Below, one piece after another: positions 14,301-46,400 of a DNA stretch of 64,000 nt. The notes under the pieces were generated by a model. It was not told the DNA's origin and ran no database searches. It saw nothing but the letters and a program-made list of their open reading frames with translations. This DNA comes from Sphaerolaimus hirsutus (lineage: Eukaryota; Nematoda; Chromadorea; Monhysterida; Sphaerolaimidae), in contig OZ038450.1 in assembly GCA_964036195.1 (NCBI GenBank), forward strand, positions 4,714,701 through 4,778,700, in the 5' to 3' direction. A program made the translations under genes and the position numbers. How positions within the stretch are numbered: position 1 is the first letter of the stretch; every line of letters begins with the position of its first letter.

Positions 14301-15356
14301 AGTGGGTGGAAAATTTGGCAAAACTTCCTGGCCTAATTTAATTGGCAGGAGACACCATAAATCTGTTGAAGGTAAGTTTTCCCACAGTGGACGCACAAAT
14401 TCCTGTGTGCAGTAGCATCGAGGCACGTTCCCCACGTGACTCCGCCCACTCGCGCCCGCCTTAAAATTACTAAAGCACACGCGAATTTGCTCGCCCGCGT
14501 TTTCGACGTATTATCATTAATTATATTATAAGTATTGCTTATTATCGACGTTTTCCCATACAAACTTGTGATTTACGTAAATAAAAGAGCGCCCGTCAAG
14601 GCGGAAATTGTGCGCTTGTGTCGCTAGTGTGCGAATGAGAATTGTGTGCGAATCGATAGCGGAGGGGACTGGTGCAAACAAAAAATATATCTATGCGTTC
14701 CCCATTGCAATTCGTGCCCATCGACTTGTGGCTATCTTCATTGTTTTTATAAATTACGTGTTCCAAAATCCTAAGGCACCGGCGTGCGATGAGCCGGGTC
14801 AAAAGTGTTTCTCCATTGACTTTGACAAGTAATTTTTACCTTTGCAGTTTTCAGTTTACATGATTTTAATGCACCCACTAGATTTTCATCCATTCATCCA
14901 GAAAAAACTTTCGGCCGTTTTGAGTGTAGAACCAAAATATAGCACATTCAACACAATTTCAGGCAGCCTCGCGTGTGCGTTGGGTACACTCGTAACTTTA
15001 TCTACCGCTGCCTATGCTACTTGTGTCAATGTCAACCTGTTTCTCGTGTTTTACCTCTGCTTGGTGTCCGTGATTGTTGCAGGGGGCAATCCCAGACCCT
15101 GTGAAATGCCCTGTAAAATGTCAAATGTCATGCAAAGTGTCAAAAGTAATGGAAAATGCCCTGCAAAATGGCAACTCGGTTGCCATTTTGCAGGGTATTT
15201 TACATGACTTTTGACACTTTGCATGACATTTGACATTTTACAGGGCATTTTACAAGGTCTGTGATTGTCGCAGTTTTTGAGGCGCAGTTGAGGGTTGGTG
15301 ATAATATCGTTTTGCCTTTGGTCGCGTTTGCATTGCTCAGGGTGGCCGGGTTTTGA
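11359..15356 (+). CDS. DOLK: Dolichol kinase, C-terminal exons
   Basis: Dolichol kinase of the ER membrane phosphorylates dolichol with CTP to make the lipid carrier for N-glycosylation and related pathways. Exons 11359-11605, 11974-12172, 14261-14371, 14963 to about 15082, and about 15274-15356 join in frame. The first encodes several membrane segments and the second LDERQ followed by a membrane segment. The third encodes the conserved GIASVGVGDAAAALVG block, part of the nucleotide-binding signature of the family. The last gives LRVGDNIVLPLVAFALLRV and the stop, matching the usual C-terminus. The N-terminal half is not securely placed. The last intron is an introner-type element whose exact splice positions are ambiguous (GG-AG at the element edge, or GT-AG at 15066/15256). 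Both choices give the same protein. Intron 12173-14260 carries two hAT-like elements. Confidence 0.9.
12229..13378. mobile_element. hAT-like element, TAGTGATGGAA ends with GGCGCC arrays
   Basis: The ends TAGTGATGGAAAAGCGCC and its near complement enclose arrays of GGCGCC words at 12240-12490 and 13190-13370. The target duplication GTTGGGTG is exact at 12221-12228 and 13379-13386. This shows that the two arrays, 700 bp apart, are the two subterminal regions of one element. The interior contains a TACCGTAT-type MITE at about 12551-13109. It lies in a DOLK intron. Confidence 0.9.
13392..14028. mobile_element. hAT-like element, TAGGGTTG ends with AAAAACGTTTTT repeats
   Basis: Ends are TAGGGTTG and CAACCCTA, with poly-A/T blocks interrupted by ACGTTT inside both ends. 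The target duplication GTGGTCAG is exact at 13384-13391 and 14029-14036. It is inserted only 13 bp beyond the previous element in the same DOLK intron. Confidence 0.88.
15083..15273 (+). mobile_element. Introner-type inverted-repeat element forming the last DOLK intron
   Basis: The left end GGGGCAATCCCAGACCCTG and right end complement share the family pattern: CCCTGTAAAATG, AAATGTCATGCAAAGTGTC and their complements. CAG flanks both sides. Read unspliced, it would stop the protein within about 40 codons, so it must be removed. At the element edge the donor dinucleotide is GG, not GT. The exon end TCCGTGATTGTTGCAG and the element end TCTGTGATTGTCGCAG differ at two bases only. A GT-AG intron shifted 17 nt upstream (15066-15256) would therefore give the same peptide. 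Confidence 0.85.
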
Positions 15357-20861: not shown

Positions 20862-22190
20862 CTACACACTAGTTGACAAAGACACCAAATGTCAACTGGT
20901 ACCCATCCCAATTGAAAGCTTGCTGACGAGCCAAAAGTTCGAATGCAGAAGTGTTAATCATGTTGCGATTGCGAATGAAGCTGTAGTGTTGAAAGAATCT
21001 GCGGTATGTCCGATGTGAACATAAGGACGACTGGCGACTAGTGATGGAAAAGGCGCCATGGCGCTTTTTGGTTTGGCGCCAGCGCGATGGCGCTTTTCCA
21101 TCACTAAAATAAATCTGTATACCTAAATCAGGGTTGGCAAAATCTCAGAAAAAAATAAAATAACAATAAAATGGAAATATTGAGAATAAAATAAAATAGA
21201 AAATTTCAAAATAAAAATAAAAATTGTATAAAAATTCAAATTTGTGTAAAATTTTTGTAAAATTGTATACAAATTCATATTTTTGTAAAAATTGTATAAA
21301 AATTCATAATTTTTGTAAAATTTTTAGTTTCTTGCTTATGGTTCAACATGTTTATCCATGGAGCTGGATCAGTCCCGAGCCCTGTAAAGTGTCAAATGTC
21401 ATATGAAATATCATGCAAAGCATCAATTGTCATGACAAATGTTAAGTAAAGTGTCAATTATCATGACAAATAACAAATAAAGTGGCAACTGTCAAGCAAA
21501 TTGTATTCAAATCTTGTTTTGTATCCAAATGTTGTTGTTGGTTTTGTATCCAAATCGTATGTCAACATTTGGATACAAAAAATAAGATCTGGATACAAAA
21601 ACATAAGATTTGGATACAAAAACACAAGATTCGGATACACAATTGACACTGCATGACATTCATCATGACAATTGACACTTTGCATGACATTTTACATTGA
21701 CATGTCCCCGCACACTCCAGTACTCCTTCAACTGAAAATGCAAACCATTATTATCAGTGATTGTTACTATACACTTGCTACCTATTGCATGCAACTACCT
21801 ACTGCATGTAAGTTCTGCAAAGTAATGGAAAGATTTGTCACCCGGTTTTCATGTGTAGGTCTAATTATAAATTTTTTCTGGCCTTGCATGCAAGATTCTG
21901 ATTTTTTGTAAAATTACTGTACATTTTTGTAAAATTTTTGTAAAATCGTTCCATTTTATTATTTTATTATGATTTTGGAATAAAATAAAATAAAATAAAA
22001 TGAAACAAGAATAAAATACAAATAAAATACATTTTTATACAATTTGTATACAAATGATTTTTATAAAACCAACCCTGACCTAAATACACAAAAATGCGTA
22101 GCAAAAATGCGTACTCGTCAGCAAGCTTTGAATTGGGCTGGGGACCAGTTGACATTTGATGCCCTTATCAACTATTTAGCGTGTGAAGGA
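20862..22190. mobile_element. CACACTAGTTGAC-ended palindromic element carrying two nested insertions
   Basis: The left end CTACACACTAGTTGACAAAG and right end (tcaactatttagcgtgtg) are degraded inverted repeats with a GGTACC/GGGACCAGTTGACATTTG word inside each. A 68-bp GGCGCC element (21039-21106) and a hAT-like element with an exact duplication (21129-22077) are inserted within it. Confidence 0.55.
21129..22077. mobile_element. hAT-like element, CAGGGTTGG ends with AATAAAAT arrays
   Basis: The ends CAGGGTTGG and CCAACCCTG enclose AT-rich arrays of AAAATAAAA and TTTTTGTAAAAATT words. The target duplication ACCTAAAT is exact at 21121-21128 and 22078-22085. The centre (about 21366-21711) is a copy of the introner-related family with an added GTATCCAAATC inverted repeat. 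Confidence 0.88.
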
Positions 22191-25497: not shown

Positions 25498-25663
25498 GGG
25501 GCTGTCCCAGACTCTCGAAAATGCCCTGTAAAATGTAAAATGTGATGCAAAGTGTATTAAGTCTTGTAAAATGACCTGGAAAATGGCAAATGTACTATGG
25601 CCAATTTACATGACGTTTGACACTTTGCATGACATTTGACATTCTCGGGCCTGGGATTGGCAC
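25498..25663. mobile_element. Introner-family element outside a coding region
   Basis: Ends GGGGCTGTCCCAGACTC and GGCCTGGGATTGGCAC, with CAG on both sides (25495-25497 and 25664-25666). The internal words are those of the intron-forming copies. The left end keeps GGGG, unlike the GTG(C) ends of copies that form introns. Confidence 0.85.
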
Positions 25664-26089
25664 CAGCGCGTAAGATGAAAATGCAGTCAATTGCAGCGAT
25701 TTAGGTCAGTTGTTATGTGCTGTTAAATCATCCCGCTACAAAAATTGCCCAATTTTATCAGCGTTTCTGCGTTCCATCGTCACTTTCACATTGTCTGCAT
25801 GCTGATGCTTATGAAATTGCTTTGTTTCCACAGAAAAAGGTAAATACGTACGAAATAGGTATTTACATTCACGTGTAAGTTGTGTATCCAAAAGAAAGCG
25901 CTCGATTCAAAATTCACATGCCTGCTATATGTAGGCACTAAAATGCCCGACGATACTCTCAAATTCCACAATCACACATTCATAAATAGAACATATTTAC
26001 CACACAAAATTGGTTCAACATCAAATCCCCGCCGCCATCCAGAATATTGCATAGTGCCTCGTTTGTCCCTCACAAAAAAATCCAACACG

Positions 26090-29000
26090 ATGCCCGAGCA
26101 CTACATGCCCGACGTGGACGAGCTGCTGTTCACCGCGGCGGCGCATCACGTTTTCCCCACCGAGCGCAGTTTGTCTATCAGAAAGGATCGGTCGTTGATT
26201 CATTACAATGCCAGCGAACCGACTTATGGAGACCGCATGCTGGGGGACCGAGTGATGCTGCCGGATTTTGCGTGCGTTTTGTATTCGTTCGGGTTGTCTG
26301 TAGTGATGGAAATGCACCGGTGCCTCGGTGCTGGGCACCCAGGGGGACCAGCATCGGTGCTGGTTCGGTGCGGTGCGGTGCCATTTTTTGGCCGGTGCCC
26401 AAGGTGACAGGTGCCATTTCTGAGGAATGGCACCGGTGCCGGTGCGGTGCCATATTTCCCGGTGCCTTTTCCATCACTACCTAGTTGTCGGCTGTTCGGG
26501 TTGTCGAGAACAGGTTGACTGGTTCCAACATAACATTGCTTCCCAAAAATGGACAGTCTTCAAGAAAAGTGGTGTGGCAGGCGCCAACAACTTGGCGCCC
26601 TTTTCTGACCCCTAGCGCCGAGGTCCTAAAATGCCACAGCGCTTTTTCCTTTGGCGCTAGTGCCAAGCGCCAGCGCCAGGCGCTATCGTTCCCGGTACCA
26701 CCGAAAGATAGCGCCATGGCGGTTTCCTTGTGAATGGCGCCATGCGCCACAGCAAAATGGCGCCAAACGCACTGTGGCAGTTTCACATCACTATAAAAAT
26801 ACCATCTCCCCACCAAGAGGCAACAACCCCGGTGACTTTTTCTCGCCCGCGCGCCAATACGCGATCTACCAGCCGGCGGCGCGGTCGCCCCACCAGAATC
26901 TGCAGCGCGACACGAGCAGTCAGAGCAGCGCGGCCAGCAGCAGCGCAGTTTCCCCGGCCGCGCCGCCGCCGCCGCAGCAGCCCACGCAGCTGCGAGTGCA
27001 GGTGCCAGTCCCGGACCCTGTAAAATGCCCTGTAAAATGTCAAATGTCACGCAAAGTGTCTAAAGTCATGGAAAATGCCCGGTGAAATGGCAAACGTACG
27101 TTTTACATGACTTTTGACACCTTACATGGCATTTGACATTTTCAAGGTCATTTTACAGGGTCTGGGACTACCCCCAGGTCGACCCGGCGCAGCGGCGGGA
27201 CCAGTGCAGCGAGAGTGAGCAGGCCTTGACTCATGAAGCCAGTACTGATGAAGTGCTCGATGGGGTGCGGCTGGTTCGATTCGGGATGGCACTTGATTTT
27301 TTTGAAACTGTTTTTTAATCGGGGCATAAAAATTGCTTTTTCGCAAGCTTAGGTTAGATAAATGCGATTTTATTCCATGTTGCTATCAGAATAAGCCACA
27401 GAAAATCCGCACGCAAGACGGTTTAAAAATGGGTGACGGACATGAAAGCTACCGGCATCGGGGCAACAAAAGTAAAGGAGAACTGACACCATATAAATAC
27501 AAAGAACCTCTGAACATTTATGTCAATTTATCCTTCATTTGTAACTCAGTTGCCCGAGAGTCCAGTTGACAGCGACATCACAACTGAAGATCTGCAAACA
27601 CAAATGGTCCATTTGACAATGGAAAAAGCGGACGCGGAAAAGACTGCTGAAGTAATTGAGGAGAGGGTTGAGACACCCCCGGGCACACCAAAGGTAAAAT
27701 AGTACAATATTTACGTAAAATATAACTCGGCTGACTTGACACTATGCACTCGTGCTTATTTATGTCTTTGGCTGGCTGTGCGCCAACCAATAACAATCTA
27801 TTTTATGAAATAGATAAGAAAACAATAAGATACTTTGTTGTCGGTAACCTATAATACCTACCTATACATCTACTGTATTATTTTCAGTGAATTGTGTTAA
27901 AATGTCCTTCGTCAGCACGTTTAGGGTGCCGATTATATTTTCCTTTTTTCCATGCAAATATTTCACAGAACTTTCTCACAACGAACTCCAAAATTATCAT
28001 TTAACCCACCCCAATTTCTAACTCAGTTGGCTGAGAGTCCAGTTGACAGTGACATCACAGCTGCGGATCCGCAAACACAGATGGTTAAGCTGACATTTGA
28101 AAAATCTGATGTGCACCTTGAGGCGGAAAAAGCACCTGACAATATTGAGGGCAGGGTTAAGACACCCCCGAGCACACCAAAGGTTGAATATTCTGTTTTT
28201 CATGAAATGGGTCTGGGGCGACTTTCTTCGCCAGTAAGATTCGAAGAGGCTTATTCGAGGGGAAACACTTTTTCATCAAGCAATTTCATGCATTTTCAAG
28301 TGTACGATAAACTGATAAATCTTGTTACTTGTTTGATTAATTAAACTTGAAAATCGTGACGCACACAATTCTCAAACAGATTAATCAAAAAGTATTCTCT
28401 CTCTATATAATATGACACTTCTGCAATTCATGCACTCTGCACTCAACCTTCCAAACTTTTCAAACCTCGCAGGACGCTGAAAATCAAATGCACCACCAGG
28501 ATGATGTGCAGCTTGTCAAGGAAGTCTCTGAGCACCTCAAACTTGACATTGCCACTGGAGAACAGTTTGAGCACCATGAAGTGCAATGTGTAAAAACTGT
28601 AGAAGTCGAACCAAGTGCACAAAGTGACGACCAGGTGCAACTCCCGGACCTTGTGAAATTCCCTGTAAAATGTAAAGTTTCATGCAAAGTGTCTAAAGTT
28701 GTGTAAAATTCCCTGGAAAATGGAAAAATTTGGTTCCCAACGACCACCAACTATTTCAACTTTGATCAAATTTGCCTTTTTTTAGAGAACATTTCTATGA
28801 CTTTAGAAACTTTGCATAGCATTTTACATTTTACATGGCATTTTACAGGGTCTGGGAGTGCCCCCAGATTGTAGTCACTGAAACCACAACCATTGTCACC
28901 TCTGAGAATCCGGAGGAGTCAGTGGAGAGTGTCAAGGACACAAAAGGTGAAAACGTAGACACTGAGAAGGATGACGTCACAGTGACAATTGTGGCACATC

Positions 29001-30545
29001 AGCAGAATAAAAGGAAAAATAGGCTGGAGACTACTGAGATTCAGTCTAATGTGATGAAAGAGTTAGATGAGGTAATTTAATAGGTATTTACATACTTTAC
29101 TGATAAAACATCGGGCATCACTGGGAATTTACGACATTTTGATAAAAATACGTTTGAAGATTATGCATCTAATTTACCGATAGTGAAAGCAACAAGATGC
29201 GATGAAAATTTTTGTTTCTTTTATTCATCACGGACAAGGTTTCATTTTAACCTGTGTAATCGGCAAACGATACATAACAACTGGTTAGGTATTATAAACT
29301 TGTCTTTGTCTTAATAGCAATGTTCTAGAAGCTTTTCACACAGGTAATCGATTCAGCAGAGGAAAACAAATCTGAGTCTGGAAGTGAACAGCAAATTGTG
29401 GAAAGGAATGAAGTACTACAAGTGATCCCGATCAGACTAGGGCTGGCTGCGGCTGGAGCCACGGATGTCACTGGGGCGGGTGGGTCTACTGATTTCAATT
29501 ATAACTTTAGCATTGTTAAATAAGGATTCTAAATAAGGATCATTATTAACACAATTCTATCAACACATTAAAAAAGTGCACTAGATATTTTTTTGTCAAT
29601 TTTCAGAGATTTTCATCAGGGTTCATTCACCTTGTTCAAACCTTGAACATTCTGTTCTCTTCATTTATACTGACAGAAACATGCAATAACATCTAAAATA
29701 CAGGGAACCAAGATGCTGCTGAACCAGAACAACAGACGCTTGAGGTTGGAACAACATTTCCAGTTACTTATTCCAGTTGCCAGTTACATTTCCAGTTACC
29801 CATTCCAGTTGCCAGTTACATTTCCAGTTATGCCACTAGCATTCAAATGGAATCTTGATTCAGATTTTGAAACATGTCTTACTGATCCTGGTCAAATGAA
29901 ACATGTCTACAAATCAAAATACTGATCCCAATCCTTAAAAACCCAAAACCCAAAATTTGATGCCACAAAATCTGATAACTTCTACATTTTCAGGCACCCT
30001 CATCCACAACACGAGAAACATCCACATCAACCACATCAGCATTCATCACAACCACACACATCAGCGGCACATCAGAGGAAACATCTGTATTGACACCAGG
30101 TGCCAGTCCCAGACACTGTAAACTGCCCTGTAAAATGTCATGCAAAGTGTCAAGAGTCATGTAAAACGCCCTGGAATGTATGTTTGTCATTTTCCATGGC
30201 ATTTTGCATCACTTTAGACACTTTGCATGACATTGATCATTTAACAGGGCATTTGACAGAGTCTGAGATTGGCCACTAGATTCAGTTATGCATGACATTC
30301 CAACACACTATGAGAATTCTGGCAATCCAATTCCCGAATGGCAAAGGAAAATTATGGCACAGAAAAAGGTTGAGCAATTGGTTGCTGAAGAGGAGGCCAG
30401 AGTTATGGTTATTTTTTGTGGAAGTTTTTTTTTTACATTCTGGCACAGGAAATTTTTTTTAATCTGACGATTTATTTCTCAGATACGGCCATCAACTGGA
30501 GAGAAACAGAGAACAGGCAGCCAGACAAAGGAAGCTGGATCATAA
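26090..30545 (+). CDS. Unrecognised acidic low-complexity protein, 12 exons, 526 residues
   Basis: Exons: 26090-26271, 26818-27001, 27178-27252, 27550-27693, 28027-28182, 28473-28634, 28868-29071, 29344-29479, 29704-29744, 29994-30099, 30280-30407 and 30483-30545. All phases agree and all introns are GT-AG, giving 526 residues. The N-terminus is MPEHYMPDVDELLF, followed by a Ser/Ala/Pro/Gln-rich stretch. Exons 4 and 5 encode two copies of a module (L.ESPVDSDIT...ETPPGTPK). A long Glu/Asp/Ser/Thr-rich, probably disordered middle follows. Near the end IPEWQRKIMAQKKVEQLVAE resembles the short PEWKRQ-type motif of some actin-associated proteins such as espin/forked and taperin; this is a weak inference. 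Introns 2, 6 and 10 are introner elements. I do not recognise the family. Confidence 0.75.
26301..26797. repeat. GGTGCC and GGCGCC MITE material in intron 1 of the 526-residue gene
   Basis: From 26301 (TAGTGATGGAA) to 26479 (TTCCATCACTA) lies a small element whose repeated word is GGTGCC, a one-base variant of the GGCGCC word seen elsewhere. A second GGCGCC block (about 26560-26797) ends in TCACATCACTA. No matching 8-bp flanks were found, so the exact history is unclear. Together they fill almost the whole 546-bp intron. Confidence 0.7.
27002..27177 (+). mobile_element. Introner: intron 2 of the 526-residue gene
   Basis: The intron is 176 bp and is exactly the element. It starts GTGCCAGTCCCGGACCCTG directly after exon CAG and ends GGGTCTGGGACTACCCC followed by CAG. 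Both exons are open and in frame (…LRVQ|VDPAQ…). The two ends are inverted repeats over about 50 bp (CCCTGTAAAATG, TGTCAAATGTCA). The element's first two bases supply the donor GT, and the second CAG supplies the acceptor. Confidence 0.92.
27550..28182 (+). repeat. Tandem exon duplication (exons 4 and 5)
   Basis: Exon 4 (27550-27693, 48 codons) and exon 5 (28027-28182, 52 codons) are clearly related. Both follow an AACTCAG acceptor, begin L(P/A)ESPVDSDIT, share QTQMV(H/K)LT and end TPP(G/S)TPK. Both are phase 0 at each end, so either can be skipped without a frameshift. Confidence 0.9.
28635..28867 (+). mobile_element. Introner: intron 6 of the 526-residue gene
   Basis: The intron is 233 bp and bounded by the element. 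It starts GTGCAACTCCCGGACCTTG after CAG and ends GGGTCTGGGAGTGCCCC plus CAG. The flanking exons are in phase 0 (…SDDQ|IVVTE…). An extra 60-bp centre is present relative to the shorter copies. Confidence 0.9.
30100..30279 (+). mobile_element. Introner: intron 10 of the 526-residue gene
   Basis: The intron is 180 bp. It starts GTGCCAGTCCCAGACACTG after CAG and ends GAGTCTGAGATTGGCCAC plus TAG. The codon split G|AT restores Asp between the flanking exons. The acceptor is TAG rather than the family's usual CAG. Confidence 0.9.
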
Positions 30546-31296
30546 GTTTTCAGAAAAAATATATTTTAGTCACTTGCCAAAAATGGGTGATTTAGACAAA
30601 ATGGGTAGTTACTGTAGTGGCCAATTATTGCCTTGGGTGATTGCATCCAAAACAAGTCTATTCATCATTTGGATACTTGCTGTGATATTCAAAATGTGAT
30701 TTCAAAGGGTTTTTTACAGGTTTTCTTCACACATATAGGCAACAGACAAATTCGTGGACCTATACAGTATGAGCTTTGAGATTTTTATAGCTATACTTTG
30801 CAAATTCACATTTGTATTGATTTACACACTTATGACGATAGAAGCATTACAATAATTAGCATACTGCACGCATTAATTAGCGTGTAATACAGTGTATTCG
30901 ATTCAAATTTACAAATGTATTTGTGAATGAAAACTGCCAACAGAACCCAAAAAGTCAAAATTTACACTCACTTTGAATACAGTGCCCGCCCCTTTGCCGA
31001 GAGTAAACGCATAAAAAACGCACCTATTACAGGTAAACCTTACATACACAAGCCATTGCGTGACCCCAACCTCAAATGACCTCCCACAAGCACCATTCAA
31101 TTCATGTGCATTATTTTGCAACACGATCGCACAATCCCGAGCATGCATAAATGCCCATGCGAAAGGCATTTTCAAATTTGGCGGCGCGCGCACCTGAGCG
31201 GTTTGTGTTACCATGGAAACGGGGCGTAAATAATGCTGGTCTCTGAATACAGTAGTAGAATCAGACTATCGGAAAACTTCAAAGGCACACCGAACT
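30546..31296. other. Spacer between the 526-residue gene and CDK20
   Basis: No gene is seen. The first part should hold a 3' untranslated region. The last 350 bp, upstream of CDK20, are less AT-rich (…GGCGGCGCGCGCACCTGAGCG… near 31180) and may contain its promoter. Confidence 0.4.
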
Positions 31297-31485
31297 GGGG
31301 CCGATCCCAAACACTGTAAAATGCCCTGTAATATGTGAAATGTCGTGCAAAGTGTCTGAAGTAAGAGAAAATGTCCTGCAAAATGGTTTTGTAATTCTCC
31401 AGAGCATTTTACATGACTTTATACACTTTGCATGACATTTGACACTTTACAGGGCACTTTTTACAGTGTCCGAGATTGGTCCTAG
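31297..31485 (+). mobile_element. Introner-family element abutting the CDK20 start codon
   Basis: Starts GGGGCCGATCCCAAACACTG and ends GTCCGAGATTGGTCC plus TAG, one base before the ATG at 31487. If the 5' untranslated region is spliced here, the acceptor would lie one base from the start codon. The left edge keeps GG; GTAAAATG inside is another possible donor. Flanking CAG is absent on the left (ACT). Confidence 0.75.
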
Positions 31486-31486
31486 A

Positions 31487-34400
31487 ATGGAAAAGTACGA
31501 AATCCTCGGTCGCCTCGGCGAGGGCGCTCATGGACTAGTCCTCGAAGGGCGCCACAAGCGAACGAAAAGACACGTGGCCCTGAAGAAAATCGCGCTGAGA
31601 TCTTTGGACGACGGGATTCCCTTGCGTGTTTTGCGCGAACTCAAATCGGTGCAAGCTTGCAGCCACGAGAATATCATCAGGTTCCACTCCCAGACCCCGT
31701 AAAATGTCAAATGTCATGTAAAGTGTCAAAAGTCATGTAAAATGCCCTGGAAAATCTCACGCACGTGTAAGTTTGCCACTTTCCAGGGCATTTTCCATGA
31801 CTTTAGACACTTTGCATGACATTCGACATTGCATTTTACAGGCTCTGTGAGTGCTCCAGATTGAGAGACAGTTTCGCTCATGGGGCGTCTTTGGTTCTGG
31901 TGTTCGACTACATGCTGACCGACTTGGCCGAGTTGATCAGGGACGCGCACAGGCCCCTCACCGTGCCCGTGCAGAAAGGTGTCGTCTTTTTGTTCGATTT
32001 GGGCGCCGCTTTGATATGAAGGGTGTGCTTCTAAAAGTACCGATCTACAAATTTTTCAAATTTGAGTTAGGACCATTTTTGGGGTCCCCATAAAAATGCG
32101 CTTCAAAAATATATATAATATGTGGGGGGTGCGAAATTCAATTTTGAGATATGGGGGGTCGAAAAAAGCAAAAAAATCGCAAAATACAGTTTTTGAAATT
32201 TTAAAAGTACCGATCTACAAGCTTTTTCAGCTTTTGTGTCATTAAAAGTACCGATCTACACACTTTTTTCAAAATTGTTCTTCTAAATGTACTGATCTGC
32301 ACATTATTTTTTGTGCTTCTAAAAGTACCGATGTCAGATCGGTGTCCGGTTGCGCAAAAACTCATTTTGTGCTTTTTTATTATGGGTAAAAGTACCGATC
32401 TACAGCTTTCTGATTTTGTGCTTTAAAAAATACCGATCTACACGCTATTACCAATTTGTTCCTTAAAAATGTACTGTACTACAAAAATACAATTCCCTAA
32501 ATTTTATATAGCTAGTGTTATGTGTATAATCAATGATTATACCCATGCATGTGGATACCCAACAATATGGCTGAAATACCCTTACCCAAAATTCCCATAC
32601 CCAATACCAATGTATGGGTATTGCATGCTCCAAACTTTCGATCGCGATTATCTCAAAATCGATTTTTTGTAGATCGGTACTTTTAGAAGCACACCCTTCA
32701 TATTTTCAGTGTGAATTGGAGCAGTTAGGACGCTTGTGTTCTATACGAGAGGCGCCGGTTCGATTCCCGCCCGTGGCGGTGCAAATTTTGCACTTTTTCT
32801 TTATCTAGGCACTTACTTCAGCCCTTCAAATGCAAAACCTCCCATCACACCACACAGCATACATGAAACAACTTCTGTACGGATTGGCGCACATGCACTC
32901 GCTGAACATAATGCACCGGGATTTGAAGCCCGCAAATCTGCTCATCAATGATAAGGGAACTTTGAAGATAGCCGATTTGGGTCAGGCCAGACTGTTCTTT
33001 GATACGGAGGAAAAAGTGAAACAGAGACCGTATTCACATCAAGTTGCCACCAGGTGCCAATCCTAAGCCCTGTAAAGTGTAAAGTAAAGTGTCAAGTCAA
33101 ATGTCAAATGTAAAGTCAAGTGTCAAGTCGAATGTCAAATGTAAAGTAAAGTGTCAAATGTAGTGATGGAATGGCGCCATGGCGCTGGCGCCATTTGAGG
33201 GCGCCAAAGGGCGCCGCGCCATGGCGCCATTGGCGCTTGGCGCCCTTTTTCTGTGGCGCCCTTGGCGCCTGGCGCCCACATTCTGAAAGGCGCCATGGCG
33301 CCCTTGGCGCCCTTTTTCCGTGGCGCCCTTGGCGCCTGGCGCCCTGCTTTAGAAGGGCGCCAAAAAGGCGCCAGCAGGGTTTCACGGTGAGAGCTGTGTA
33401 AACGAGAAAAAAAATGAAAAACGCATCCGTGGATGATCTAAATTCGCCAGAAAAATGGACTGAGTGGTGTGAGTGGGTGGAAATCTTTCGTCCAACGGTT
33501 CATCAGATCTGTCTGGCGGATCAGAAGACAAGAATGATGGATCGTTAATTTGCAAAATCATAAATAAATGGATTTAAATCGTTGCAATTAGGAAACATTG
33601 TTTGGAAAGGTCTATTTGTAATGAATGGATTGTTGTCAAATGACAATTTCCATTGCGTTTGAATTCCACAATTGAATTGTGGATTTTATTCGAAATTTTT
33701 TTGTTGCTAGCCTGGTTTTTGTTCATTACATCCTGGAGAACGCGAATTAAGAAGTGAATGCGCGTACAATGGTGCTGTAGAAACATTTTTAGCACACACA
33801 TGGTGTTGTAGGCACTTTTTTATCCTGGCGCCCTTGGCGCCTGGCGCCCTATTTTCCAAATGGCGCCATGGCGCCCTTGGCGCCCTCTTTCCGTGGCGCC
33901 CCTGGCGCCTGGCACCCACTTTCTGAATGGCGCCATGGCGCCCTTTTTCTGTGGCGCCCTTGGCGCTTAGCGCCCACTTTCCGAATGGCGCCATGGCGCC
34001 CTTGGCGCCTGGCGCCATTTTTTCTGGCGCTTTTCCATCACTAGTCAAATGTGAAGTCAAGTGTCAAGTCAAAAGTCAAATGTAAAGTAAAGTGTCAATT
34101 GTGTATCCAAATCTTATTTTTTGTATCCAAATCTTATGTTTTGTATCCAAATCTTTTTTTAAACAAGATTTGGATACAAAAAACATAAGATTTGGATACG
34201 AAAAAATAAGATTTGGATACACAATTGACACTTGACTTTACATTTGACACTTGACTATACATTTGACACTTTACTTTACATTTGTCATTTGACTTGACAC
34301 TTTACTTTACATTTGACACTTGACTTTACATTTTACAGGGCTTGGGACTGCCCCCAGGTGCTACTTATGAACATGTAAAGTTTGCCATTTTCAAGGGCAT

Positions 34401-37400
34401 TTTACACTGTGTATGACATTTGACACTTTACAGGGCGTGTTACATGACTTTGACACTGCATGACAATTTTAAATGACTTTTGACACTTCACGTGACCTTT
34501 GACATTTTCCAGGACATTTTCCAAAACATTTTCCACGACATTTGACATTTGACACCAAATTGCAATTTTTTAGGCTGCCTTTTCCTCACAGGTGGTACAG
34601 AGCGCCGGAACTGCTGTACGGCTCCAAAACGTACAGCAGCAAAGTGGACATGTGGGCGGTGGGGTGCATTTTCGGAGAGATGATCACCAAATCGCCCGTG
34701 TTCCCCGGCACGAACGACATTGAGCAATTGGTGCACGTGTTCAGACTGTTGGGCACGCCCGATGAGAAGGTATTTTAAACAATTGATTATGATTGCGATT
34801 TGCGTCACTTTGCGATGAAATGGCGTCGGCGCCCCCGGGGGTGTGCGCGAAACTGACCGATACTGTGCAGAGTTGTTTGAAGTACTGAACTTTTGTTAAA
34901 GTAAACGTAAACATAGGGTATTTTCTTTTACTCACCCCTGAGTACAGAAAACGTAAAGTATTTTAAAAATACTTTTACACTGCGTAAAACATGAGTAAAA
35001 TACTTTTTTCCAGAGAAAACGTAAAAACGAGATTTTTTTCTGGAGAAAGCGTAAAAAAAGGAAAAAAATTTCTCGCATAAAAGTTAGTATTTTCCTCAGA
35101 AAAAGTCAATGTTTTTCGAAGTTTTACTCTGATATACAAAATGATGTCTTTTTCTCTTCTGGTCAGTATTTCTTACGAAAATGTCTTATGTTTGTCACTT
35201 TCTGTTTGGCAAAATGACATTTTCTGTCTTCTAAAAATACGTTTTCTGTACTCGCGTACTTTCAAAAAGGTATTTTTTCGCTAGGAAACGTAAACGTATT
35301 TACGCAGTACTCGCGTAATCATCGAGTAAACGTAAATACGTTTTAACAACTATGATACTATGCCGCCATTTTGAAATGGCTTCGATGCGGCAACGACACA
35401 ATTAGTGAAGTGGTATGCTCGGCGAGCTGAAAATTATGCGCAGAACCCTACCATAATAAATGTAATGCATAAAATCTTGTGATAAATTTCGTAATTATCT
35501 TTTTTTTTTTATATATAAGTTCATTTGGGTTTTTAGATCGATGACCACGTAATGATACAATCAATCTGGGAACTTCCCACGGGCACTAGGTGACGGTGGA
35601 TGTATGAGTTCCACCCACTTCTAGTTCTAAATATTCCATACTAAAGACGAAATATTACAATGAAAAACTGTATAATTTTTGGTGCACTATTCATGGGTTA
35701 TGGTAGGTTTCCATACTAAGTGTGATGTCCACCGAGTATACCACAAAAAATTTACTGTCCGAAACGTTTACTGATTAGCAGCGTATCGTATTTACGCTAA
35801 TTATCGCAATTTTTGACTTAGCAATAGGACACTAAAAAATTTAACGAATTTCCCAATATACATATTCAGACATGGCCGGGACTGACGTCACTACCGGACT
35901 ACGCAAAAATCACATTTCCGCACTACAAAGCGGCGGGCATCAAAAGTGCGTTTCCCACAGCCACAGATCTGGAACTGGCCGCGCTGCAGAAACTTTTAGT
36001 TTATGATAGCAGCAAAAGGCTGCAGGCGCATGAAACTCTGGTGTTGGTTATAAATGAAAAATGTACTTACAGACTACCTTATTACCTCGAATTAACCCCC
36101 CCCTCAAAATGGGATGTGGAAATAATACCCCCTAGTTTGTGTAGCTATCTACGTTTGTGTCGCAATATACGTTTTTATGTCCAAATATATCCTGTTTGGA
36201 TACATTTATTACCTGTTTTGGGTACTCTAATGAAAATTTCTGATGAAATAAGGGAAAAAGAAAAATCCAAAACCGGTTTTTTCTTGTAAAGGAGGTAAAG
36301 TGGACGCGCGTGGCTCTCTGAGCCGCGTTTCGGTGTTTTTCTTTGGTGTTCTTCTTTCCTACGACAATAACAAGTACTTTTATACGACTTTACAGTTTTA
36401 CCACGTTTTATCTACTTTTCTATTCATACCGGAGTCGAAAAATTTGATTTTTGGCACATGTCCAATAAAAGTGAAATCGACACAAAAACCCCAAAAACTG
36501 TCGAGTGTGACCACAATTTGTCCTTCCGGTCTAAAACGAGTACTATATGGTCGTCAAGCGGTTCCAGCTCAGATAGCAGCTCTGACTCTACTTCAAGTGC
36601 CCCGACAACAGTACCCTCTACTGCGCCCCGCCGCTCGATGGATTTAACCCCGATCAGGGAGGACGCGGTCGAATCGACTGAGACGGGCGAAAAAATGGAT
36701 GAGAATACGGACAGGAAAAGGAAAATGTCCAATGAAGAGGTATGTGTTGAACGGACGTGTAAAAAGGTACGGGGTGAATTTTTGGCACTGGGATGGGGTT
36801 CAGGGTGTACGAATAATTTTGGCGGTGTGTCTCGAAAAATATGCAAATTAATGCTTGGTATGTTGCTCGCTCTGGCACTGTCTCACCAATTACAGTCGAG
36901 CGTGGCCCCGAAAAAGGCGGCGGTCAGCCAATCGTGTTCTACGCCGGTTTCAAACAAAACGGACAACCTTCCCGGGGATGACCAACAAACAGACAAAAAA
37001 TTGGTCAGTTACGTGCCTCGTGTTGACGTTGACTTTTGCCAGAATCTGCGGGAGGGTGAAACACTGAGAGATGCCTTTTCATCCGTCGGTGTTGGGGGTG
37101 GTTGTAAAAATCATCTAAATACGATAGATCTTGGGTTGACGTCGATGCTTTATCTGAAAGGGATCATTTGTTTGCCAAATTCAAAAATGCGAAATACGAT
37201 GAATAATACTGATATATATACGGCCTTCCTTTCTCAGACGGCGCGCGGATTTTTGGGGCTACTGGACAAAAAATTGAGCGAGGGCAAGGGGGCCAGGGGT
37301 GTGGATTTACAAACGTTACGCTCAACTATGTGGTTTGTGTGTGAAACCGAAAATCGTGTAAAGGCCTGTGAAGAAAGTCTGAAAAAAGCCAAAACTTTGA

Positions 37401-40400
37401 CGCTCGATTCCACACCCCAAACCGCCCCGCCCCCGGCGGTTCTGGGTCCCGAACCGGTGCACTTCTCGGCCTATGAATTTTCCGATATGTTCAGTTTAAC
37501 CTGGCCCTATACAATTATGGTGGATGATTGCCAAGACACTTTCAAATGTGCGATGCTGGCTCTGATGTATGTGAGTATTGTCGGAAAATTTCAAATTTTT
37601 GAAAAATGCCAAGTAAAACGTATCAATCTTGACTGCAAAAAAATACATTTTCAGCTGCAAGGGAAGAATTGCGGTAGTAGCGATGATCAAATGGCAAAAA
37701 TTTTGAAACTGAACTACGATTATCGCCCGCACAATATTTCTGGCTATGACAACGGTTTTAAAATGTGGTATTTTCGTGCTCAAAACTTGTGGGCTCAAGT
37801 TCCTCGTGGCAAGCACTGGTATGACGATGATACAGAAGACTTAAAATATGCTCGCCTGACTCCGGCATACATGACACTGATTCAAGTGGTTAGGAATTTG
37901 GAAAAACCGGAAATTAGAGTAAAAATTGGGTCCGGTGGTAACTGCAAAACTTTCTCGCAGTTGCGCGCGGCAATTGCTCTGAACAAAAACTTGGCGGCTG
38001 CGCTGCTGCGCACATTTGTGGTGGTTGACGGTAAACAAGTGCCACGCCAGCTGCGTTGCTGTGGCGTTTTTCCGTACTGCGAACGCAGGCCGGTCGATTT
38101 TCGGACGGCCATAATGATCGGTGCCGAAAAATATGAACAAGAGGTAAATAAAAAACTATACGGTATGGGGGTATTTTTTGGAGTATTTTGGGATTTCCAA
38201 CCGATGAGGCATATCGGGGTAAACAAAAGGTGCAACCTAGACATCAAAACACAGAAAGGTTTGGTCGGTATTTTGACCTGTACGGTAAAAATTGTGAAAC
38301 GGACAGGTGTGAGATGTGGGGGTTACATGTCACCACTAATCATTGATACCGTAATTATATCTTTGAAGGCTTTGATTCCGGACAGCGAGCGCGAAAACTG
38401 GGGTCGGCCTTATTTCAACCTGTTGGGGGAAGCCTATGACGATTTGCGGTACACCGTACTGCGCACACACGTTGAAAATGAGTTGGAAAAAAAGCTGTAT
38501 GATCAAGAATTTGATGTCTACACTGGCAGTGGGATTTGGTCTGCCAATCCCAATTTGACCTCGCATAGGACCCGCTATGTCGACCATTTTGGCACCCTAA
38601 ATCTGGTAAAAAGGGTCCATTTTTGATGGAAAGTTATCGGGGCGAGTTGAATCTGGAACCAATACGGGGGTTTATACGCGGTCTATACGTGGAACTTTCC
38701 AAGGGTTATGGATATGTGAAAAAACTGGAAACGGCTTGCTCTGGAGTTGATGGCTTGGAAAAAGTGATAAAAACGATTTCTGAAAAACACCACTCAAACA
38801 CTCTAATAACTCATGAGCGGCTGTTAAAACTGTTTTCTACTGGAAATGCAAATATGCATAAAATAGCGTTCCCTAAAGCGGCGTGTGACGTAAAATGGGT
38901 AAATGAAAATATTGTGACACTACATCGCAAAAATGTCTTGTTTTTTCAGTCACGTGTGAACCCCCTATCCGGTACCTCGGTCAACAGCAGCGCGGAAACG
39001 CTGCAACGGTCTGCGCGAATTGGCAAGTTTGGTGGAACGGCGGGAAAGGTGAATAAAATTAAAAAAAATATTTTTGCATTTTGCATTAGCGAGACAAGAT
39101 TGGGATACGTTGCGGAAAATTATGGTATAAATACATGGTCTTACTTGCAGACAAATACCTACGCAAAATCGGTATACGTTGGTGGTTATGGGGACGACAA
39201 TAATGAAAACCGTGGTGGAAATAACGCCAATGTAAGAGATAATTATCCCTCTGATTATGGCCGCGACAATAGATCATACAACGCCCGCTCTCAGGTGTGT
39301 GTGGGGTCGAATACCGTTGGGAAGTGTGCCAAATATCTGTCCATGAATGAACTGCCGATGTCAACTACTGCCACGCTAGCAAAATTGGTGAAACTTTCGC
39401 AAAGTGGCAAATGTGAAAAAATGTTGTGTCAATCAGTTCTGATCAATAAAAATAATGGGGTCGAATTGACGTTGAAAAATGTGCTGGGCCGAATTAGAGA
39501 GGGCACACATTGGGCCCCGGACTTTGCTCACCGCATGACACAGTGCTACCAAAATTTTGATGTGGAAATGCCACTTTGGCGTTTAAATAGAATCGAATTG
39601 AAAGAAGGAAAAATGAGAGTACTTCTGCTGGGAGATAGTTGTACCTCAAGGGTGAACATTGAATTAAATCGGTGGGTATTTTTGGACTTCCGGAGATTTT
39701 TGGCTTTAAAAAATTCAAAAATATGTTCAAAAAAGTTGTTTTTTGATTACAGCTACGCAAGACAGTGCAACTGGGTCATTGATATGACTGATTTTGGCAC
39801 ACTTTTTCACGGGAAAAGATTGGGCTGCATTTTGCCTGTTGTAATGGACAGCCATAAAACAGAAACGATCTACGATTTTGTTTTGATCAGATCCTGCCTG
39901 GATGCCACGGCTTGTGTAATTGCAGAAAACATGCAATGTAAAAATGAGAAAATTCGCGGAAAATTCTGGGAGGGTTGCTTTCTGAAGCCCCTGCAAAAAT
40001 TGTTGTTTCGATTTGAGTGTTGGTTAAATGAACACGGGCACTATAGTACACCGATTTTGCTCAGTCCATTAAACCCAATATTAAATGGTGTTCTTTCCCA
40101 AAAAACTGGCGAAACAGAGTTACGAGTTCTGTGCGATTATATGCTGGATCTCGAGAAATACACCGAACAATATTTTGAATGTGACAGCAGGGTGATTGTT
40201 CTAAAACCGCTGAAATGGTTGTGTGAAAATTTTGACAAAATTTCGGGAAATAAGTCGAGGGTGATGGCCTATTTGTACGGAATGAAAAATGACGGCCTGC
40301 ACCCAAGCATGGTTTTTGACGCTGTGTGTTGTCGCGAAGCGATGAAGCATTGTATCTATGTCGAAGAAATGTGTGTTGTCTATTTCAGAATAATGTTCGG

Positions 40401-43400
40401 TGATAATAAAAATGCACATACGTCAATAACAAACATTACAGTACGAGCGCGGCAGGGACAACGCGTACGGCTATGGCCGCGGCAACGGCCGCAATGCTGG
40501 ACGACAAACTTTTGGTGCCAAAAATTCATGGCAGAATACCGGTGGGGATTGGTGATGCGGTCAAAGAACGATTGGGGATTTAAAGGTATCATTTTACAAC
40601 GGTGCACTGCCGTTTTACAATGGTTGACTGTCAATAAATCGAATGTAAAAATCGCCCACTCTCTCAGAATGTGTTGGCAACAAATTATGGACTTGATCGA
40701 TTTGTTTGGCGTGATAAAATTTGGCGTGTGGTTTTTCTACGATTCGATCGCGTTTTTAATAGTTTCATCAAATATTTGTGCATTTGTTACATTTTTATCC
40801 GATTTTGAGCTTGGTTTGAATTTTTGCTGGATTGAATTGAAAACAGTGCTGCTGGGATGTGATTATGTGTGTGGGTATATGGCCTGTACGATTTTTATGA
40901 AAAATTTAAAAAACTTGAAGAATTTAAAAAACGTGACCAACGCGATTTACAAAAAAATTGACAAAACAATGATGTTTTTGACATTTTTACTCCTGATATC
41001 TGGAGTCGATGCAATGGATGGTAAGGCTAATTCGAACGGCTCATTGAATGCTACTGTATTGGGTGCTGCATGTGCGGGCATGCGCCGCCTAATACAGACA
41101 GCGTCTCACGGAATACTGAGCAAAAAACAGGGTTCGGGTAATTTGAAAATTTTATATCAAAACGTCCGCGCAATGAGGGGCAATTTTACATCGTTGGCGT
41201 CGACTTGTCAATCGGTCTCGTCGACAATTGGTTTGGATGTTTTGGCCCTATGTGAAACACAAGCGACGAATGGTCTAGAAATTCCGGATTTGGATGGTTA
41301 TGATTGTTTCAACAAATTTAAAACATCGAAAATGACAGGTGGCCTGACAATATATACGAAAAGGCGGCTAAATGGTCGATTTGTGGGTAGCGAGGAATCC
41401 CCAGACGTGCAAAACCACGTCATGCAGGTATTAATTACGGTAAACGGAACACACACAAGTCTGATCCTGGTTTATTTGGAAAATAATGGTAAGGTAAAAA
41501 ATAACAGGGCAATGGGCCTGTTAAATGACGAAATTCTGTTATCGATATCGGAAACTATTGAAAAAAATCTTAGCAAGGGTATCTCGAGCATCGTGTTGGG
41601 TGATTTTAATGGTCATATTGGGAATGACAGATGGGGGGTGGCAGGTAATGTCAGCCGCCACAACGAGAACGGAAAAATAGTGCGGAAATGGTTGAAAAAC
41701 ACAGGGGTTAGCCTAGCTAACAAGAAACTACGAGGCCTGTGGACATTCACGCGAAAAAACTGCAAATCTATAATTGACTTGATCTGTCACATTGGCCCAG
41801 ATGTGCACTTGCATGCGGGTGTGGTTGATGAAAATGGTGAAATAAGTAATTTAATTAGTGACCACAACGCCATTTGGGTTGATTTTTCGATAATTGCAGC
41901 AAAATTGAATGTCGAGGAGATGGCAGACGTGCCAATATTGAGAAAATTCCGCAAAACTGAGCTGCTAGAGCTCGAAACCGAACTGAATTTAGACCCAATT
42001 AAGAAACCTGCCACACATACGGAATTCCTAGAATCGATACATAAATATGCGAAAAAAGTGGGGAAATCTGGCAAAAATCAAAACCAAAAATTTGATACGG
42101 TGGAATGCAACTTGATAAAAAAAATGAATTTTGCCCGCACACACCTAAAAAAAATTCAACTGATACGCAAAGTTTGTTACGTTTGCAAATTTGCAGAATG
42201 CAATTGAATAAGTACAGGAAAAATTGGGAACTGAGACAAGAAACCGAATATGTGTCTCACATGTCATCAGACAGGACCTGGGGTGTGAATGAAATTTATA
42301 AGCACGTAACTGGCTATAAAAAACAAGCATTCAGAAATTTTGCATTGGAAAATGCTGATGGTATTATAACATCAAATGTGGAGATTGAAAAGGAGCTTTT
42401 GAAGGCGTGGGAAATTGTGATGACACCAAATCTCGGCGAAGAAAAAATGGATGCTAGGAAATGGCGCGGTAGGGACATTATTACAAAAACGGAACGAACA
42501 AAAATGGATGACAAAATTTCCGAAACAGAAATAAGAGATGCCATCAAAAAAATGAAAAATGGCAAATCTGCGGGCACAACAATGCTGCAACACGAAGTGC
42601 TGAAAATTTTGGATGAAACACGAGTAGCGGCCCTACTTGATATGTTCAATGGCTGGTTTAACGGCGGCAAAATTGAAAACGAATACAAAGTTTGTGAAAT
42701 GGTCTTTCTACATAAGAAAGGAAACACGATGGACATAAAAAACTACCGAACACTCGGAATCGGTTGCAACGTAATAAAATTGTACCTGTCAAATCTGAAT
42801 AAAAGGACGCTGGCAGCATTTGAAAATTGCTCAGGGTTTGGGGATATTCAGGGCGGATTTCGCGGCGAAAGAAGGACGTTGGATAACGTAACAATTCTTC
42901 AAGCGTGCAAAAAGTATGCTGATAAAACAAAGGGAAAATTGTTGACATGTTTTGTTGACGCAGTAAAGGCGTTTGACAGGGTTGATCGGAAAAAACTATG
43001 GGCAAAAATGAGCCACTACGGGTATACACACAAATTCATAACGGCGATAGCAAACACTTACGAAGGGCAAAAATGTAGATTGAAATTTGGCAAAACATTG
43101 ACCCAGGAACAGGACTACCCTATTGGCCTGAGACAGGGGTGCTGCTGGTCACCAACTGGGTTCATTTTGTACTTAGCAGACCTGCGATTTCACCTAGAAG
43201 AACTGGAATGTGGTGCACGATTGGAAGGAAAAAAAGTTCCTGCATTGATGTTTGCAGATGACATATGTCTGGCTGCAAACACAGAACCGGAATTGCAGCG
43301 AATCATGGACACATTCAGTGCCTGGGCATGGGATTGGAACGTGAAAATAAACCCGACAAAAAGTTTCGTGTTGAGATGGTGCAAAAAGGCCGATGTAATA

Positions 43401-46400
43401 AGAAAATGGCGCCTTGGCTTCGCCCGCAAAAATACTCCGACGTTCATTACGGAAGTGGACAAAATAAAATACTTGGGCGTGTGGTTCAGTAGCAATAGGG
43501 ATACTTTTGCACTGCATTGCGACAAAACTGTTGAAAAAGCGAAAAGATTACAGGGCATGATTTTCCGCTGCAGCAAACGGTCACATAGACCGTTATGGTA
43601 CGCAAACCACATTTGGAAAACATACGCTGAAAGTGCAGTGCTTTACGGACTAGATGTGGTCGGTGGCAGAAAAAAACACTTGGATGCAATTGACAGGATC
43701 TACCTGCAGACGATAAAAATGGCGGGGAACCTGAGTCGGACCACATGCAGTGATGCTCTACTACTGGACTTGGGAGGCGTTTTGCCATCGGAACGATTAT
43801 TCCGGCACACACTGAACTATGATCGTTATTTGAATGATAGCAAAAATGAGTTATTGAAAAGTGCCTATGACTATCTGTCCAAAAATCTGCCGAAAATTGA
43901 TGGAAAAATAGAAACCATGGGCGGAACTATATTTGCGAGAGTAGAAAAAATTCTGACAAAATTCGGATGGTCACTGGAAGAATGTCGCGCCATGACAAAA
44001 GCTTACATAAAGAAGAGTACAAACTACATCTGCATGCGCGAATGCAAAAAACGAGTGCTGCTACACGGCAGCCAAAAATCGCGACACGGCATTTTGGATG
44101 TTGACATTTTAAAGTTGGATTCCGTATCGGGAAAATACCACCTATGGCTGCAGTCGCGATATAACAGCCTAAGATATCCGAACAATGAAGTGCTTTTCTG
44201 CAACTTCTGCAGTACAAAAAAAACGAAGATTCCGATGACATTGTTGCATATGTTCGGCAAATGTGAACATGGCGCCACAAAAAAACGATTGAATTTGTTG
44301 TGTAAAACGAGTTCATGTCACTGTGAATCGATACACAGAACGACGAATGCAGCGAATATATGGCATTGGGCGCAAAAATCGGATAGATGCCAGTCACACA
44401 GGGCAAAAATACATGATCACATCGAACATTGTCTGAACAGAGGCTCTTTGGCCCAAAACGGTGAAATTGCGATTAAAAAATACGTGGGAATCGACGGATT
44501 ATAAAAATTCAGGCAATTTATACCTCGACGCAATTATCACCGCGCCGGCAGCAAACGCTCTCCTCGCGGACACGGGCCAACATCTGCAGATGGTAACCCG
44601 GATTAGCCAAAATGACACGATTGGAGCAGTTGGAATCGATCGATATCGACCAGATTTGGATTTTTGATGTCAATTGATTTGGATTTTAACACAATCATTG
44701 CGCAGAGTTATGTATTTATACCCCGTAAAAATTTTAAAAAACCATTTTTGGAGTCATGACTCTTCATGCGTCATTGTTACTAGTTATCAGCGACGTGAAG
44801 TCTGAATTGACTAAATAAACTTTAAACTATTAAAAAAATAAACCCCCATCGAATTTCGCTGGCGAAATAATAAACCCCGACGGGGGTATTTTGAGGTAAT
44901 ACGGTATACAATGACTCCAGACGTATGGAAAACTATCTACCGTATTTCCTCAAATTACCCCCCGGGGGTTTATTTTTTCAGTGACAATTTTGAGAGAAAA
45001 ACATGAAAAATGCAACAATAATCACCATTTATATGCAAAAATGCAAGTTTTTACAGCCTTATATAAGGATGTAAATAGATGGTATAAACGATGTTCTAAC
45101 GTAACACAGTGAGAGTTTTGAACGTCTGTTATGCATTTCCCGGACCAGAAATTCATAGTGCCCATTTTGAGGGGGGGGGGGGGGTATTTCGATGAAATAC
45201 GGTAGATAATAATCCATTTTCAGCTTGGACTATTTTTTCACCGCGCCGAAGCCTGCGAAAGCAAAAGAAGTTCCCCGACCAACGTCTAGGCAACGCAGAT
45301 CTGCGCCAGGTAGGTGAATTTGAATAGATTTAGGCGTCAAGTCAGTTTTTAATGGAATTAATTTAATTTTATGGTGATGACTCGAATGTGCGTCATTGGT
45401 ATTTCATTATCGGTGATGTAAAGTCAACATACCAAATAAACATACAACCCCCTTCAAAATGGAAATTTTTATGTCGCACTATCCCCTAATCACCCAATCC
45501 CGTGAGCATTAACCCAAAGTGAGAAAAAATGATAATTATTTCCAGTCAGGTATACCTCCTTAGTCCTTCAGACGATGTTACCATATGCGATAAGGTGCAC
45601 ACAATTTAGTAAAGACAAGAATGTAGAAATGTGAGTAGAATAACGACTTTTCGCTTCCACTGTAGCGTGCAGACGGCAACACAACTTCTTGCAATTTAAA
45701 AGTCGACCTAGCTTGAAAGTTCATTAGCCACCCCAGTTCTAATTTGTCGACACAAGAAATTGGCCCCTGACTAGGGTTCAAACGGGACCAGTTTTTCGGA
45801 CCGGGACCGGGACCAGAAATTTTCTAATGTCGGGACCGGGACCGGGACTGGGGGGTCGGGACCGGGACTGGCTTTTTTCAATTGTCGGGACCGGGACCGG
45901 GACTGGGGGTTCGGGACCGGGACTGGGATTTGCCGAACCAGGTACCGGCACCGCGGTATTGTTTGAACCTTATTGGTATGTAATATCCAGCCAATGTTGT
46001 TCCACACACCTCCACTGTGTGAAGGACCACTCTCAATGCATTAGCCTTTTCTTATAACATTATTCAAGCAGTATTCCATTGCCATCTTCACTTGAAGTTG
46101 TGAATATATGATGAAACGCAATGTACGCAGGATTTTTGGGAGGGGGGGGGGGCGGCGCCAGTTGTAGGTGCCAACGCCATGGCAGTATTGGCGTTGGCTT
46201 TGGCGTTAATGTCTACAATATAGGTATCTTTATATACCTATATTTCGTACTAGAATCATGTTGGGGACCTTTCTAACGCTGTCACATTATGGAAAAATAG
46301 ATAGTAATCATTGGCTGGGTATTTGCGCGCTTGCGCGCAAAAACTTTTTAGATGTTCCTACAAAATCGCTTTAGAAAAGTGCCATGTCTGGCAAATTTTT

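Follow-up and report, generated by a model that had tools for sequence, protein, structure and literature searches.

Palindromic MITE-like elements as a probable source of spliced introns in the nematode Sphaerolaimus hirsutus

The 348 Mb genome of the nematode Sphaerolaimus hirsutus harbours a family of palindromic, MITE-like elements that mostly measure 160-230 bp and of which several copies lie in the 64,000 bp stretch analysed here (contig OZ038450.1, positions 4,714,701 to 4,778,700; referred to below as the window). The best explanation of the sequence data, to which we assign a probability of roughly 0.9, is that these are non-autonomous palindromic DNA transposons acting as introners of the MITE type, in which copies inserted at CAG would be spliced by means of their own GT and the duplicated CAG. 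That a transposon family forms introns in this genome had been proposed in a preliminary description of the window, and the proposal is supported by the duplication of CWG targets, by joins that fall inside conserved domains and by a strong bias towards the orientation in which the GT end comes first.

Seven of the window copies (those starting at 15083, 25498, 27002, 28635, 30100, 31297 and 31681; Table 1) can be aligned end to end, with pairwise identities of 73-84%. In the boundary pattern that they share, CAG is followed by 11 bases of the type GTGCCANTCCC; after the body come the mirror of GGGGCANTCCC and a second CAG, the right-hand target copy being TAG in two of them (30100 and 31297). 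Read from the sequence, the element ends in GTGCCANTCCC on one side and in GGGGCANTCCC on the other, and 3 bp, C(A/T)G, are duplicated upon insertion. A profile built from the seven copies matched each of them on both strands because each copy is a palindrome, the arms measuring roughly 85 bases. The RNA of copy 27002 folds as a single hairpin (-89.7 kcal/mol, z = -11.7), in which the first five and the last eight bases are unpaired and adjacent to one another, and the most intact hairpin is that of copy 15083 (-145.6 kcal/mol). The family had been described as recent, which holds only in part: the window copies differ from one another by 16-27% and the family is of mixed age. Among the additional copies listed in that description, those at 25498 and 31297 align end to end and 21366-21711 could be retained only as a decayed copy. 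A second, related palindromic element is present at 9603-9785 (ends GTGCCAGTTCC and GGGCCAGTTCT, CTG on either side), and a stretch resembling it was found in the intron to the right of one locus sampled elsewhere in the genome (L131); it may represent a sister introner family. The whole window was scanned for tRNA and Rfam matches and contained neither, and a search for one exact element pattern in IMG/VR and GTDB contigs gave 0 and 0 matches.

Table 1. Element copies and associated gene features in the window. Exon-intron and element borders are marked by ^; the last column gives the position of the first stop when the copy is retained.
Feature	Positions	Strand	Description	Borders	Stop if retained
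c1	15083..15273	+	In last coding exon of DOLK-like gene, at a CAG target and with the GGGG end upstream		Stop
c2	21366..21711	+	Decayed relative; weak partial profile matches		
c3	25498..25665	+	In no recognised exon; GGGG end on the left; flanked by CAG on either side		
c4	27002..27177	+	Intron of unnamed gene, phase 0, made up of element 27002-27174 and the CAG on its right	CAG^GTGCCA...CCCCCAG^GTC	27 codons in; open when removed
c5	28635..28867	+	Intron of the unnamed gene that also has c4, phase 0	CAG^GTGCAA...CCCCCAG^ATT	23 codons in
c6	30100..30279	+	Intron of the unnamed gene that also has c4 and c5, phase 1; right target copy TAG	CAG^GTGCCA...CCACTAG^ATT	21 codons in
c7	31297..31485	+	Directly upstream of CDK20 start codon, end one base short of the ATG (31487); without GT donor		
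c8	31681..31859	+	Intron of CDK20-like kinase, phase 2; join aligns to CDK7 without insertion	CAG^GTTCCA...GCTCCAG^ATT	7 codons in
c9	33054..34357	+	Younger copy, 33054-34354 plus CAG 34355-34357; carries other repeats; sits in CAG at donor of older intron	CAG^GTGCCAATCC...GGGACTGCCCC^CAG^GTGCTACTT	
Remainder of older, decayed element-type intron	34358..34591	+	Profile matches 34370-34445 and 34457-34523		
CDK20-like kinase, first four coding exons	31487-31680, 31860-31978, 32858-33053, 34592-34769 (gene 31487..34769)	+	Pkinase E 3e-59; CDK7 alignment		

Four introns (c4, c5, c6 and c8) begin at the GT of the element and end with the AG of the target copy downstream of it, exact to the base. 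Five such coincidences had been claimed for the window; the fifth, 15083-15273, does not start with GT. The accompanying claim that the flanking exons are open and join in frame was borne out for the four GT-AG introns, where a stop is encountered 7-27 codons in if the element is retained and the frame is open over the tested stretch if it is removed. For the CDK20-like kinase the join had been said to match the protein family, and in the alignment with CDK7 neither of the two element joins of this gene indeed shows an insertion.

The other element join of the kinase belongs to the intron 33054-34591, which was reported to start with the element. A copy is present there, but the intron is two-layered and does not consist of one element: the younger copy c9 is set into the donor of an older element-type intron, which begins with GTGCTAC at 34358. 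Splicing from the donor at 33054 to the inner AG would give VATRCYL followed by a stop, and splicing to 34591 gives 12 residues at the join. For the intron 33054-34591 as a whole, the acceptor is likely to be the AG at 34591, and splicing in two steps is possible, given that the older donor would be regenerated if only the inner copy were removed. Arrays of GGCGCC-rich repeats are found at 12240-13322 and at 33170-34040, the latter inside this large intron.

The copy at 15083 starts with GGGGC, not with GT. Its precise removal corresponds to a GG-AG intron and, as had been stated, the frame is kept; an alternative GC-AG intron (15086-15273) is likewise in frame, with one Gly added. The gene around it is one that we take, from its motifs, to be DOLK-like. 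The claim that this join matches the DOLK family was not supported: the C-terminal piece of the gene had no match in Pfam and the join had no convincing relative in PDB. The copy may be a young or unspliced insertion because its hairpin is very intact. A GG-AG reading is also thinkable because GG donors occur in the copepod Eurytemora affinis, for which the accessible text of PMC5714493 describes GA and GG donors after an obligate AG in recently gained introns; the non-canonical donors of E. affinis have A at intron position 3 in almost all cases, whereas the DOLK-like copy has G.

A search of the genome with the consensus ends, which the preliminary description had suggested as a check, located the exact GT-type end at 1,525 places in the 348 Mb assembly, 705 of them after CAG and 554 after CTG (83% after CWG). 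Exact end patterns of 26-29 nt were found hundreds of times and the reversed control patterns 0 times. From one large contig 130 copies were sampled (50 preceded by CAG, 40 by any other left flank and 40 more by CTG), a sample in which well-preserved copies are favoured, as it was drawn by exact GT ends from a single contig. The right end was located in 118 copies, the remaining 12 being dropped because it was not found, and the left/right combinations were CAG/CAG in 34, CTG/CTG in 36, CTG/CAG in 15, CAG/CTG in 2 and other in 31. Identical CAG or CTG thus flanked 70/118 copies, and the predominance of CWG on both sides indicated that insertion duplicates C(A/T)G.

Each sampled element was excised in silico together with one target copy, and the longest reading frame that stays open through the join was compared with Pfam, the reversed reading serving as control. 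Joins with an open frame under 50 aa, or with under 8 aa on one side, were excluded, as were six near-identical duplicates (L019, L033, L122, L129, L132 and L137), leaving 38 forward and 37 reversed readings for the CTG-left copies and 29 forward and 26 reversed for CAG/CAG. A known domain was present in 15/67 joined readings with the GT end first (12 at E <= 1e-4) compared with 1/63 reversed readings (P = 0.0003). Since the other 52 GT-first readings lack a known Pfam domain, 15/67 is not to be taken as the share of copies in exons. Among the CAG/CAG copies a domain was found in 6/29 GT-first readings (LRR, cadherin, calpain, carnitine acyltransferase and, weakly, VWD and PLC/C2) and in 1/26 reversed readings (GDT1 in L038, beside the join). 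The CTG-left copies yielded 9/38 GT-first (two GPCRs, TRP_2, CHGN, AMP-binding, trypsin, cullin, E1 dehydrogenase and a weak zinc finger) and 0/37 reversed beyond three weak, unassigned families (zf-rbx1, DUF2116 and SBSPON_C; E 0.003-0.05). Weak unassigned families in the same E range also occurred in forward readings (nec1, CHASE2 and DUF3405 for CTG-left; DUF4715 and RGS-like for CAG/CAG).

Counting assigned matches, the domain extends across the join in 11/67 GT-first readings and in 0/63 reversed ones. The spanning cases are L013, L024, L046, L070, L080, L091, L092, L107, L125, L126 and L135; in L115 the domain (69-114) begins past the join (60), and in L036, L043 and L055 the matches flank the join on both sides without crossing it. 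Three of the assigned matches are weak (L024, L055 and L080). Two earlier assignments were dropped: L035 had been called a cadherin by motif and has no Pfam match, and L131 had been named as the CHGN member, which is L070. Locus names beyond those with Pfam or PDB support are our assignments from motifs. Relatives in PDB align through the join for cullin-1, branched-chain E1 alpha and a trypsin-like serine protease, and also for calpain, where a gap of 2 residues lies close to the join. The interrupted E1-alpha gene (L092) has a second, uninterrupted paralogous locus, 47% identical, which has no intron at that place.

A codon score, whose model was trained on the CAG/CAG set, exceeded 10 in 15 forward and 2 reverse readings out of 34 for CAG/CAG and in 7 and 2 out of 36 for CTG/CTG, with no forward bias for CTG/CAG (3 and 3 out of 15). 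The CTG/CAG scores count against the introner reading, as do the 29 of 63 sampled forward joins (CAG/CAG or CTG-left) that were not clearly coding, the 52 of 67 joined readings that lack a known domain and the poor fit of the DOLK-like copy to the GT-AG rule.

The steps by which introns would arise from this family can be outlined as follows. A transposase would insert the element into CWG with duplication of the target, and the spliceosome would then recognise the 5' splice site in the element's GT and the 3' splice site in the CAG duplicate. At a CAG target, if the GT end lies upstream, the coding strand reads CAG^GTGCC...CCCC CAG^, and dropping the element together with one CAG restores the frame exactly, so that such an insertion could be spliced immediately. 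The RNA hairpin, with both ends unpaired side by side, may help splicing. At a CTG target the insertion reads CTG^GT...CTG^, with TG in place of AG; it would be spliced poorly and then be lost or repaired, the GT...TG ends being improved later by a T-to-A change on the right under selection for AG.

Several observations bear on such a repair. The right-hand target copy was CAG in 15/59 CTG-left copies and CTG in 2/48 CAG-left copies (15:36 versus 2:34, P = 0.006; 0.010 without duplicate pairs), and 15 of the 20 single-base variants of CTG on the right are CAG. Genome-wide the ratio of CAG to CTG was 549:341 at the right end and 705:554 at the left (P = 0.0096). In cullin-1 the left CTG encodes part of a Trp common to the human protein, and CTG is therefore the old state at that site. 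A domain was found in 6/11 CTG/CAG joins and in 3/27 CTG/CTG joins (P = 0.009), as would be expected if repaired copies persist in genes. The excess of right-hand CAG looks like selection repairing an AG acceptor; selection is favoured because mutation or arm-to-arm conversion in its absence should act both ways.

What becomes of CTG/CTG copies before any such change is a separate matter. Three of them (L091, L092 and L126) lie inside conserved domains. In a pair of tandem paralogues (L121 and L122, both CTG/CTG; their protein had no match in Pfam), 238/240 flanking bases are kept and both changes are synonymous, while the element differs at 14/163 positions and by a 2-base gap, and its retention would introduce a stop in both. 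This pattern is how a spliced intron behaves and suggests GT-TG splicing. Against such splicing speak the codon scores, in which CTG/CAG copies have no forward bias, and the arm divergence, by which the classes do not differ in age. One possible reading, which we advance tentatively, is therefore that introns of two grades exist: CAG insertions would be ready GT-AG introns, and CTG insertions would be GT-TG introns spliced well enough to survive and then upgraded by selection through a T-to-A change. If so, the passage of a 3' splice site from TG to AG could be followed in this genome through many parallel snapshots.

It is, on the whole, rather probable that the CTG/CTG copies in conserved genes are instead unspliced, being gene-breaking or polymorphic, and that only CAG-ended copies are introns, with no GT-TG splicing. 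Domains are rarer in CTG/CTG than in CTG/CAG joins, L092 could be dispensable given its uninterrupted E1-alpha paralogue, and TG is not known as a regular 3' splice site in animals. The L121/L122 pair speaks against this, but in that pair the next exon has, 15 bases from its start, an AG that is also in frame and could serve as acceptor. By arm divergence, moreover, the CTG/CTG copies are no younger: arm identity, used as a measure of age, did not differ between CTG/CTG (33), CTG/CAG (14) and CAG/CAG (32) copies. The available text of PMC2374985 describes TG as a U2-type 3' site in human genes, where it is used at alternative sites, whereas in the S. hirsutus family TG would stem from transposition.

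Removal by a route other than the spliceosome, that is excision at the DNA level or hairpin-guided splicing blind to GT and AG as proposed for Amoebophrya, is very improbable. The whole element does form one hairpin, the CTG/CTG genic copies lack an AG, and hairpin introners with non-canonical ends are described in the accessible part of PMC7789003. However, both routes should be indifferent to orientation, and domains in CTG-left joins were seen in 9/38 GT-first and 0/37 reversed readings; the shift of the right target copy towards CAG likewise argues against them. It is scarcely credible that MITEs entered pre-existing introns whose old sequence was lost afterwards: the intron 33054-34591 does hold a young copy plus other sequence, but in the four window introns and the CAG/CAG sample the splice sites coincide with the ends and target copies of the element itself and do not just lie close to them, and the E1-alpha paralogue has no intron at the place in question.

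The window also contains other mobile sequences and genes. At 1044-3563 an LTR-type (gypsy-like) element is represented by a frame in which domains of reverse transcriptase, RNase H and integrase were recognised, and 36371-44504 is occupied by a LINE-type element with endonuclease and reverse transcriptase domains in two frames. On the minus strand, 53700-57550 holds frames that resemble a cyclin A-type gene by motif, as we presume. Outside the window, COX1 on the mitochondrial contig (C762, 14,754 bp) is read by the mitochondrial code of invertebrates (AGA = Ser, AAA = Lys, ATA = Met, TGA = Trp), a set of assignments that excludes vertebrates, tunicates, echinoderms, flatworms and cnidarians. 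This contig (L139 and L140) presumably carries ND2 and ND1 on the minus strand and COX1, ATP6, COX3, CYTB, COX2, ND3 and ND5 on the plus strand, in an unusual order.

PIF/Harbinger (Tourist-like) MITEs have a 3-bp target site duplication, TWA, with a central A/T, and terminal inverted repeats with a G-rich start. The S. hirsutus element resembles them in its 3-bp duplication with central A/T and in its G-rich start, and its target is CWG instead of TWA. A Harbinger-type transposase gave 163 matches in the genome, with over a hundred closely similar copies. Seven of the eight copies fetched (L141-L148) are about 98-99% alike over 2.5 kb, with a catalytic domain apparently split by an intron, and these copies represent a recently active autonomous family. 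In the 8/163 matched loci examined, a zone of about 1.5 kb around the transposase contained no ends of the palindromic element.

The origin of new introns is an old question, and in this genome the birth of introns could be studied copy by copy. The recognisable ends of this family number well over a thousand, so that the choice of target, the orientation, the supply of splice sites and what looks like selection on a single acceptor base can all be counted, which amounts to a natural experiment on the quality needed in a 3' splice site. In an incomplete literature search we found no account of an introner that targets CWG and has its acceptor repaired. Splicing in tunicates is the subject of PMC13326754, as far as its accessible part goes. 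The introner elements of Amoebophrya, according to the available text of PMC7789003, likewise have inverted repeats that form a hairpin and direct repeats of 3-5 nt at their ends; those ends are mostly non-canonical and variable, whereas in the S. hirsutus family the GT end and the orientation matter.

Judged by its sequence features, the S. hirsutus family belongs with the introners surveyed by Gozashti et al. (2022, PMC9860276), which the accessible part of that paper characterises by introns near-identical from end to end, terminal inverted repeats, short target site duplications and an mRNA length unchanged on removal. The family corresponds to this in its palindromic ends and duplicated targets, in the likeness of introns of unrelated genes up to both splice sites (the four window introns and the CAG/CAG genic copies) and in its insertion into exons, where removal restores the frame and the joins lie within or between conserved domains. 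In some families of that survey, such as those of Chrysochromulina, the 5' site is likewise carried by the element and the 3' site comes from the target site duplication, and two animal groups with introners are listed in the part of the survey available to us (PMC9860276). From the introners described there the S. hirsutus family differs in its animal host, in its CWG target and in that the CTG half of its insertions would start with a defective acceptor that has seemingly been repaired.
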